31,442 bases of DNA from a virus. Positions 2,548 to 10,892 of the stretch are shown one piece after another (the stretch's first letter is position 1; every line of letters begins with the position of its first letter). The DNA is taken from positions 1-31,442 of the IMG/VR virus record IMGVR_UViG_3300047457_000368; one strand, written 5' to 3'. The position numbers were made by a program, and so were the translations under genes. The notes under the pieces are model-generated. The model did no database searches and was not told where the DNA came from. It saw only the letters and a list, made by a program, of their open reading frames with translations.

Positions 2548-2759
2548 TTATTATAGGTTTGGTTGTAATATTGTTCTGCCATTATTAAAGATGGGGTAAT
2601 CACTTTTGATTCTTCTCCTATCATATATCCTTGTGAATAAGCATTTATCATCTGCTCTTTCTCCATTGCTTTGGCTTGTTCAACTAATTTTAAATAATCA
2701 CCTAAAGACCTCATATCAATCTTTGATAATTCTTGTACTAACCATTCTACTGCTGTCAT
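2544..2759 (-). CDS. Small protein, family A (71 aa)
   Basis: The frame is open further upstream, but the start at 2759 is preferred: it follows the same A-rich leader (2757-2773) seen before two other genes here, and it overlaps the stop of the 113-aa gene. The product is helical and charged, with TAVEWLVQEL near the N-terminus and EQAKAMEKEQMINAYSQG in the middle. The 96-aa product at 3336-3626 shares this plan (TEWFLEQL, then RARQREKQNIFTTYIDAF), so the two look like distant paralogues. Similar small proteins are common in Bacteroidota phages; no function is known to me. Confidence 0.7.
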   Translation of the reverse strand: MTAVEWLVQELSKIDMRSLGDYLKLVEQAKAMEKEQMINAYSQGYMIGEESKVITPSLIMAEQYYNQTYNK

Positions 2760-2773
2760 ATTATTTGTTTTTA
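2757..2773 (-). promoter_or_regulatory. A-rich translation leader, copy 1
   Basis: Minus-strand TAAAAACAAATAATATG, identical over 17 nt to the copies at 3100-3116 and 3624-3640. It ends in the ATG of the 71-aa gene. It replaces a Shine-Dalgarno site, in line with A-rich initiation in Bacteroidota. Confidence 0.75.
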
Positions 2774-3102
2774 GTGTTAGGGGAAAATGTGTCAGGACTT
2801 TCCTGTACAATCTCATAAGTTGCTTCAAAAATATCTTTATCAACAAGCCATCTTTCACCTTTTACTCCAACACACAGATATTCTCTACCAAAACCGTGAC
2901 TTAAATGCTTTTTATTTTCTAATGTAGATACATAGGGGATTTTGATTTTGTGTTCACCAATAAGACCAGAAGTATGTATACAACCATCCTCATCAATATC
3001 TTCATCATTGTAATACCTAATCATAAATCCATCTTCATCCCCCTCTTCAAATAGTTTAGCTTTTACTGTTGCTGTTTTTCTATAGGTTTTAAATGCTGTC
3101 AT
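2761..3102 (-). CDS. Hypothetical protein, 113 aa, PGDYG-like C-terminus
   Basis: An acidic N-terminal half (GDEDGF, DEDIDEDG) is followed by YLCVGVKGERWLVDKDIFEATYE-like text, which resembles the C-terminal core of the small PGDYG family of unknown function (a G-x-x-G-E-x-W-P/L-V segment followed by IFExxYE). The start ATG follows the identical A-rich leader, itself only 17 nt below a strong hairpin (3119-3141). The last codons and stop overlap the leader of the next gene. No catalytic role can be proposed. Confidence 0.7.
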   Translation of the reverse strand: MTAFKTYRKTATVKAKLFEEGDEDGFMIRYYNDEDIDEDGCIHTSGLIGEHKIKIPYVSTLENKKHLSHGFGREYLCVGVKGERWLVDKDIFEATYEIVQESPDTFSPNTKNK

Positions 3103-9908: not shown

Positions 9909-9921
9909 ACACATAAAAAAG

Positions 9922-9953
9922 TTTGGAAATGTAAAATAAATTCCTTATATTTG
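9922..9953 (+). promoter_or_regulatory. Strong Bacteroidota-type promoter for a noncoding transcript
   Basis: TTTG (9922-9925), a 20-nt spacer, TATATTTG (9946-9953). This is an exact match to the consensus, with a start predicted near 9958-9960, right at the first base of the structured RNA below. It begins 13 bp after the DnaA-like gene stops and no start codon follows for 400 bp. Confidence 0.82.
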
Positions 9954-9957
9954 TAAT

Positions 9958-10052
9958 GACAAAGAGAGAGCCATCGTTTGATGCTTTGTTTAGAAAGATA
10001 TACTAACCTGTAGGGGTGCGGCTGCTCTCGCCAATCCTCTGCAGGTTTTTTA
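9958..10052 (+). ncRNA. Putative ~95-nt structured RNA ending in an intrinsic terminator
   Basis: From the promoter to the T-run there is no usable reading frame, but dense pairing. P1 is ACAAAG (9959-9964) with CTTTGT (9984-9989). P2 is CATC-GTTT-GATG (9972-9983), stacked on P1 with a 7-nt 5' bulge AGAGAGC (9965-9971). P3 is the terminator stem AACCTGTAGGGG (10005-10016) with CCTCTGCAGGTT (10036-10047). The bulge sequence GAGAGC (9966-9971) is a perfect complement of GCTCTC (10024-10029) in the P3 loop, so a pseudoknot is possible. I do not recognise it as a known riboswitch or regulatory RNA family. Short length, own promoter and own terminator suggest a trans-acting RNA. Confidence 0.72.
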
Positions 10053-10056
10053 TTTT
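10005..10056 (+). terminator. Intrinsic terminator of the small RNA
   Basis: A 12-bp stem with two G-T wobbles (10005-10016 with 10036-10047), a 19-nt loop that can add GCG/CGC, and the tract TTTTTTATTTT (10046-10056). Confidence 0.82.
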
Positions 10057-10364
10057 AGGTTTTTGCCCAAGTTTTACCCTGTCTGTGAGGGCAGACAAAT
10101 AATAACTTGACAGCTCATTTGGATATGTTACGCACAAAGTGAGAGCAATGTCCTACTCCTGACAACTCTTGACGGTGAAGTTCAATGACTTGCGTGATAA
10201 CCTGCCCACGGATGCAGAGGAAAAAATGGGTGCTGTGTGAAAGAGAAACCCTAAAAGGTTGAAAAAAAAGTTTTTTATATTTCTCTTTAATCTAATGAAT
10301 ATTTGGTTAAAATTCTCAACCAAAGACTTCACCGGATATAGAGGAGCTATGCAAAGTATAAACT
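10057..10364 (+). other. Noncoding 308-bp stretch with multiple stem-loops
   Basis: No open frame of useful length: all three forward frames are broken by frequent TGA and TAA. It holds nested complementary pairs: CAAGTT (10068-10073) with AACTTG (10104-10109) around GTCTG/CAGAC (10081-10085, 10092-10096); GACA-GC-TCA-TTTG (10109-10121) with CAAA-TGA-GC-TGTC (10135-10152, small bulges); ACG and AAGT with ACTT and CGT (10172-10195); TTTGGTT/AACCAAA (10302-10308, 10318-10324) just before the next gene. Its base composition is richer in G+C than nearby genes. It could be a long leader, a second RNA, or the replication origin. Confidence 0.55.
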
Positions 10365-10892
10365 ATGAAAAGTATTGAAATGAGATCAGCAGACTTTAAG
10401 AGACAGTTAGAACCTTTCTCTTTTAGTCCTCAGATGAAACAAGAGTTCTATGATTATTGGTCAGAACCCAATAAGAGTAACACCAAGATGAGATATGAAC
10501 AAGAAAAGACTTGGGACCTTGCCAGAAGGCTTAACAGATGGGCTATGAACAATAAAGACAGACACAACCTACAAAAGACAGAGACAGGCTATAGAGAAAC
10601 TAAACTAATTAAAGAGCCTACTACAGAGTTAGAAAAGTTAGACCACCTTTTAAAGCAGTATCAGTCTAAATTTGACTCAGTACCATTTATGGATATGGGT
10701 AAATGGTATGACTTTATGAAGTCTAATAACCTACTCAGAATCTTTACTAAAGAGGATATCAAGATACTAAGAGATGCTTATGGAGAGGATAATTATAAGT
10801 GTAGGTGTGGGTGTGTAATGCTAACCTTTGATTTTATGACTAATATAGGCAAAGACTTTACTTGGTTAAATCAAATGCAAATCAGATGTTAA
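10365..10892 (+). CDS. Replication-protein C-terminal-domain-like, 175 aa
   Basis: The segment SPQMKQEFYDYWSEPN...KMRYEQEKTWDLARRLNRWA (about 21-59) is a domain that usually lies at the C-terminal end of larger primase or replisome-organiser proteins of Bacteroidota phages and mobile elements. Here it stands near the N-terminus of a 175-aa protein with no primase or DnaD-type domain before it. The rest has LEKLDHLLKQYQSKF, a helical middle, and a CRCGC cluster near residue 146-150. It follows the structured noncoding region. A solitary replication accessory factor is the best reading, with moderate certainty. Confidence 0.6.
   Translation: MKSIEMRSADFKRQLEPFSFSPQMKQEFYDYWSEPNKSNTKMRYEQEKTWDLARRLNRWAMNNKDRHNLQKTETGYRETKLIKEPTTELEKLDHLLKQYQSKFDSVPFMDMGKWYDFMKSNNLLRIFTKEDIKILRDAYGEDNYKCRCGCVMLTFDFMTNIGKDFTWLNQMQIRC

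Follow-up and report, generated by a model that had tools for sequence, protein, structure and literature searches.

Organization of the locus

The stretch of DNA analyzed here, hereafter the window, is a virus contig of 31,442 bases in which the genes for an HK97-type head, the portal and the tail lie on the minus strand and are opposed by a short plus-strand block with a NinG-like gene. A noncoding stretch of 456 bases, with a 137-aa gene on one side and a 175-aa gene on the other, holds a small structured RNA, designated here RNA1, followed by a second one, RNA2 (Table 1). The order promoter, RNA1, RNA2 and gene is constant among the relatives. The DnaA-like gene is located directly 5' of RNA1 in the relatives in which the upstream flank was read. 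The gene on its 5' side is exchanged among phages (L019, L008, L012, L014, L016, L048, L050 and L057); in many of them it starts with MTHGSLFSGIGGFDLA..., resembling a C5 cytosine methyltransferase, and it is missing from the window.

On the other side of the RNAs, the gene at 10365 has a homologue in L006 that forms the C-terminal part of a protein with a Lin1244_N domain, and the presence of this N-terminal domain in the L006 relative makes a replication context for the RNA1 locus plausible. No toxin family was matched by the nearest gene downstream of RNA1.

Table 1. Coordinates of the genes and RNA features at the RNA1 locus of the window.
Feature	Position	Strand	Basis
DnaA domain-IV-like HTH small protein, 137 aa	9495..9908	+	PF08299, E 5.7e-7, slightly below the cut-off
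Promoter, flavobacterial/Bacteroidota sigma-A type	9922..9953	+	Pattern match and alignment of 19 related phages
RNA1, ~95-nt structured RNA	9958..10052	+	Covariance models R1/R2; start predicted at G9958, 3' end within the U tract
P1 hairpin domain	9958..9990	+	Folding and conservation; P1b also by covariation
Hypervariable helix, 5' strand GAGAGC	9966..9971	+	102/102 cells Watson-Crick with 10024-10029, 17 sequences
Terminator hairpin	10005..10051	+	Covariation of P2 and P3; wobbles 17/17
Hypervariable helix, 3' strand GCTCTC, within the terminator loop	10024..10029	+	Complementarity to 9966-9971
RNA2 (type A), ~230 nt, second structured RNA	10058..10288	+	Covariation; no Rfam match
175-aa protein gene	10365..10892	+	N-terminal part matches C-terminal part of Lin1244-type phage proteins

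Architecture of RNA1

A preliminary description of this region, made from the window alone, had proposed a compact transcript with its own promoter, paired stems and a terminator but no protein frame, and all of these are present. The promoter consists of a -33 element TTTG (9922-9925), 20 nt and the -7 box TATATTTG (9946-9953). Its pattern count in one genome, three found vs 1.6 expected, is weak evidence alone; the promoter is kept in 18 of the 19 related phages, and the remaining one has a single mismatch. In flavobacterial promoters the box lies at -12 to -5 relative to the start (PMC9723704), which places the predicted start of RNA1 at G9958, a purine that is paired within P1. No open reading frame of at least 60 aa was found inside RNA1. 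A promoter and an intrinsic terminator of its own thus enclose a structured non-coding stretch, as expected of an independent small RNA gene.

The 5' domain is built on P1 (GACAAAG 9958-9964 with CTTTGTT 9984-9990), a helix of 7 bp that opens at the first base of the transcript, and on P1b (CATC 9972-9975 with GATG 9980-9983), which closes a GTTT loop. Between them lies the bulge AGAGAGC, in which a one-base spacer separates P1 from the hexamer GAGAGC. The 7-nt bulge described before does exist; the strand that pairs is 6 nt long, and the seventh base is a spacer present in two phages only. A linker joins the P1 domain to the terminator hairpin, where P2 (10005-10016 with 10036-10047) is followed by a 3x3 internal loop and by P3 (GGC 10020-10022 with GCC 10030-10032), closing a 7-nt loop composed of U and GCTCTC. 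Directly 3' of the terminator stem is TTTTTTATTTT, with the U tract at 10046-10051.

The region is more stable than its shuffles (z -4.0 for 9960-10056 and z -3.2 for 9958-10052). The MFE structure of the window itself lacks the P1/bulge arrangement, which is seen by comparison. Ten homologues, when folded, mostly adopt the RNA1 arrangement without the pseudoknot; for the window and some others, the MFE structure places the hexamer in a competing stem at the 5' end.

Distribution of RNA1

Relatives were sought with the downstream protein, then with two RNA patterns and then by a wider protein profile search. RNA1 was found in 18 further phage contigs which, after removal of overlapping contigs and together with the window, provide 17 distinct RNA sequences. 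Most of the relatives were reached via the neighbouring protein and so without use of the RNA sequence. A covariance model built on five sequences detected RNA1 in every scanned locus from the wider profile search, and the models R1 and R2 found one RNA1 copy per related record tested. All RNA1-bearing relatives represent one phage lineage, so the invariant frame of RNA1 partly reflects shared descent.

Four more distant protein relatives, namely L006, MT839942, phage 11b and Riemerella phage CRP5, had no RNA1 that could be found at the corresponding locus, and a similarity search of named phages gave no match. Within the phylum of G001, 396 genomes were searched with the profile of the 10365 gene and with R2, neither of which had a match, the latter being a weak negative with 10 of ~2000 candidates per genome scored. 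Pattern scanning of bacterial genomes gave three chance matches that lack the structure, and further viral pattern matches were also chance. The preliminary description had matched the RNA to no known family; indeed, Rfam 15 gave nothing for the window at the gathering score and eukaryotic chance matches only at a relaxed threshold, and the homologous regions of L013 and L059 likewise had no family at the gathering threshold. A literature search, conducted outside subscription journals, retrieved no description of this RNA nor of any phage small RNA in a Bacteroidota-type phage setting.

Covariation of the RNA1 helices

In the alignment of the 17 distinct sequences (A9), 99.5% of the 423 cells of P1b, P2, P3 and the pseudoknot are paired, and when the partner is slid by 1-3 columns pairing falls to 36-46%. 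Twelve pairs have both sides changed, and the covariation score is 0.51 vs 0.15 for shuffles and at most 0.09 for slid partners. The complementarity between GAGAGC and GCTCTC, noted previously in the window, proved to be general: all 102 cells of the bulge-loop helix are paired across the 17 sequences, all of them Watson-Crick with no G-U, 47 cells are changed on both sides, and both-sided changes occur in five of the six pairs (score 1.15 vs 0.25 for shuffles and at most 0.15 for slid partners). The shuffle comparison is anticonservative given the kinship of the sequences; neither the slid control nor the observation that whole hexamers are replaced depends on kinship.

The covariance analysis suggested in the preliminary description therefore upheld P1b, P2, P3 and the pseudoknot, all of which covary, and was uninformative for P1; there the core CAAAG/CTTTG is invariant and is supported by conservation and folding. 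Loss of pairing in relatives, which had been named as the outcome that would speak against the structure, was clearly not observed. Two wobbles in P2, U10011-G10041 and G10014-U10038, are invariant in all 17 sequences, and the pairs beside and between them change; such a pattern is typical of a recognised feature. These comparative data are the decisive evidence, and on this basis RNA1 is confirmed as a real structured RNA. The view that the pairing arose by chance around an ordinary terminator had nothing in its favour beyond a single genome; it is refuted by the paired fraction and the slid controls given above, and its probability is negligible.

Hypervariability of the hexamer

Two properties of the locus go beyond the preliminary description, namely the hypervariability of the hexamer and the second structured RNA directly downstream. 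At least ten hexamer alleles occur (GAGAGC, GGCTAC, ACTCGC, GATCGC, AATCGC, TAGGAC, GTCAGC, GTTCGC, CTGGAC and AGAGAC), and the loop strand tracks each of them exactly. In L059 and L060 the adjacent gene is 96.3% identical and the hexamer differs at five of its six positions. In general, the mean hexamer difference is about 0.56-0.71 whatever the distance between the phages, as compared to 0.04-0.15 for the RNA frame and 0.09-0.47 for third codon positions; it is saturated (~0.57 or more) even in comparisons with 9% divergence at the third codon positions of the next gene and 4% in the frame. Slow compensatory drift along the phylogeny does not produce such a pattern. Seven hexamers recur in different backgrounds, and ~0.26 repeats would be expected in 17 random draws from 512. 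L050 and L062 agree in the hexamer, in P1b and in the greater part of the linker but differ in the upstream sequence and in the type of RNA2, a pattern which suggests that RNA cassettes are exchanged.

Across the aligned columns of ten near-complete genomes, no additional site follows the hexamer; only the two strands of the helix match fully, and the two 5-mer matches outside them involve alleles that are one base apart. The stacking energies of the hexamers fall at -11.7 +/- 0.7 kcal/mol, a narrow range in comparison with free hexamers (sd 0.69 vs 2.06, P 0.0004), also when similar alleles are collapsed (P 0.0008) or an AT-rich composition is assumed (P 0.0005); with GC content matched the constancy is suggestive only (P 0.058), and the test was chosen after the data had been seen, on alleles that are not independent. 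The pairing of the hexamer thus looks self-directed, with roughly constant strength. The helix may form within one molecule or as a loop-bulge kissing interaction between copies, and the covariation fits both equally.

RNA2 and its replacements

RNA2 begins 6 nt past the U tract of RNA1. Type A, the one in the window, is homologous in L003, L012, L014, L048, L055, L056 and L062, and in the eight sequences 429 of 429 cells are paired, 14 pairs being changed on both sides (slid controls 30-47%). Wobble pairs stand on the plus strand only, which identifies the plus strand as the functional RNA. Assignment to group I introns or to another known RNA had no Rfam support. In other phages an unrelated type B (L005 2644-3000, L013 11769-12107 and L047 335-693) or type C (L009 3563-3898, L050 and L057-L061) replaces RNA2 between RNA1 and the 10365-like gene, each type being conserved within itself.

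Type C is ~96% identical between phages, as if recently spread. A DUF559-like nuclease gene is inserted right 3' of it in L059-L061 (about 2627-3000), and in the phages without this gene a short piece of its start (ATGTCTT...) persists in frame, which suggests a mobile nuclease attached to the type C RNA element.

Possible roles of RNA1

Our preferred reading, held tentatively and with slightly less than even confidence, is that RNA1 represents a new family of phage noncoding RNA, a free structured RNA that acts in trans and whose variable helix pairs with itself. RNA1 would be released as a stable molecule with its 5' end sealed by P1 and its 3' end by the terminator, and its fold may then be bound by a phage or host protein, with RNA1 being either a ligand or a decoy. 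Such a protein would read the invariant parts, namely P1, the pair of G-U wobbles in P2 and the internal loop with G/AA. The bulge-loop helix would be a self-pairing clamp, intramolecular or between copies, in which the strength and not the sequence is tuned. Turnover of the hexamer most likely results from exchange of the ~95-nt RNA cassette among phages, perhaps aided by an advantage of rare types when infections are mixed.

A further, doubtful possibility is that the hexamer is a molecular address by which copies of RNA1 from a single phage identify one another, either in oligomers formed by loop-bulge kissing or in incompatibility during mixed infection, with rare hexamers being favoured. 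If this is true, rare hexamers would be spared interference by the RNA of relatives that co-infect, and many alleles of constant strength and free sequence would circulate.

The main rival explanation, to which we give a smaller though substantial weight, is a conditional terminator acting in cis. RNA1 would then be a leader, and on bypass of its terminator transcription would run on through RNA2 to the 10365 gene; capture of the terminator loop by the bulge during transcription would set the speed at which the hairpin closes, and a protein or small molecule would shift the balance. The variable helix does include the terminator loop itself, its tuned strength suits a kinetic switch, and RNA2 is a plus-strand RNA placed right after the U tract in a locus of constant order. 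No conserved promoter of its own was seen for RNA2, which keeps this explanation under consideration, as read-through from RNA1 may matter. However, the terminator looks strong in all relatives, a conserved antiterminator helix of substance seems doubtful, those found being short, wobble-rich and implied by the invariant frame, and transcription of RNA2 may be supplied by the upstream operon.

It is unlikely that RNA1 is a replication-control RNA which regulates or primes an origin in 9909-10364, with the hexamers as incompatibility types comparable to the loops of plasmid control RNAs. RNA1 is flanked by a DnaA domain-IV-like gene on one side and a Lin1244-related gene on the other, a position in line with such a role, and the allele-like turnover fits negative frequency dependence, whereas DnaA boxes are not enriched, clear iterons are absent, and neither an antisense nor a third partner site was found in the aligned parts of the ten near-complete genomes. 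In addition, the allele set is no more orthogonal than random, and the DnaA-like protein does not follow the hexamer: those of L056 and L062 are near identical and the hexamers are different.

Base pairing with a host or phage mRNA, as in many small RNAs, is very improbable. The promoter, the terminator and the size of RNA1 are typical of such RNAs, but the linker, which is the sole clearly unpaired part, varies (mean 0.3-0.5 differences per site) and no conserved seed is present. The antisense action on mRNA considered in the preliminary description gains no help: RNA1 has no single-stranded stretch that is both long and conserved, and the aligned parts of the ten near-complete phage genomes contain no further site that co-varies with the hexamer.

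The locus adds a well-supported RNA family absent from Rfam to an environmental Bacteroidota-type phage lineage. The family is unusual in that the letters of a helix turn over faster than the neighbouring codons and the pairing stays perfect. With RNA2 beside it, exchangeable among three unrelated types, the locus qualifies as a candidate RNA island within a putative phage replication region.

Comparison with known RNA systems

The pR'-6S RNA-tR' unit of lambdoid phages and the put leaders of HK022 are short promoter-proximal phage RNAs that end in a terminator and lie downstream of a ninG-like gene. RNA1 resembles them in all these respects; unlike in those phages, it is followed by two early-strand genes and the late genes are on the opposite strand, no Q gene was found, and there is no sequence relation. 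The RNA of type III toxin-antitoxin systems (ToxI), encoded by phages and plasmids, has a pseudoknot followed by a terminator, comparable to the bulge-loop pairing and terminator of RNA1. In contrast to ToxI, whose tandem repeats precede a ToxN-like endoribonuclease gene, RNA1 is a single copy with no tandem repeats, and no toxin-like gene was identified next to it.

In the plasmid copy-control RNAs (ColE1 RNAI/II, R1 CopA/CopT and IncB) the loops vary as blocks and the frame is fixed, and RNA1 similarly has a block-variable loop in a constant frame. Copy-control RNAs pair with an antisense partner, whereas RNA1 carries both strands and no other partner was found in the aligned parts of the ten genomes.

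In ROOL, GOLLD and OLE, structured RNAs of phages or bacteria, covarying pairs between loop and junction were first read as intramolecular tertiary contacts and turned out to be intermolecular (PMC12286853). RNA1 differs from these RNAs in length, ~95 nt as against several hundred, and has no Rfam match.

The prohead RNA of phi29 contains two separated loops that are mutually complementary and whose sequences differ between relatives. RNA1 differs from it in size (95 nt vs about 174/120), in having two hairpins with a terminator instead of a three-way junction and in showing no sequence or Rfam match, and the phage that carries RNA1 is not phi29-like and has an HK97-type head. What the two RNAs share is that they are phage-encoded and structured and have loop complementarity.
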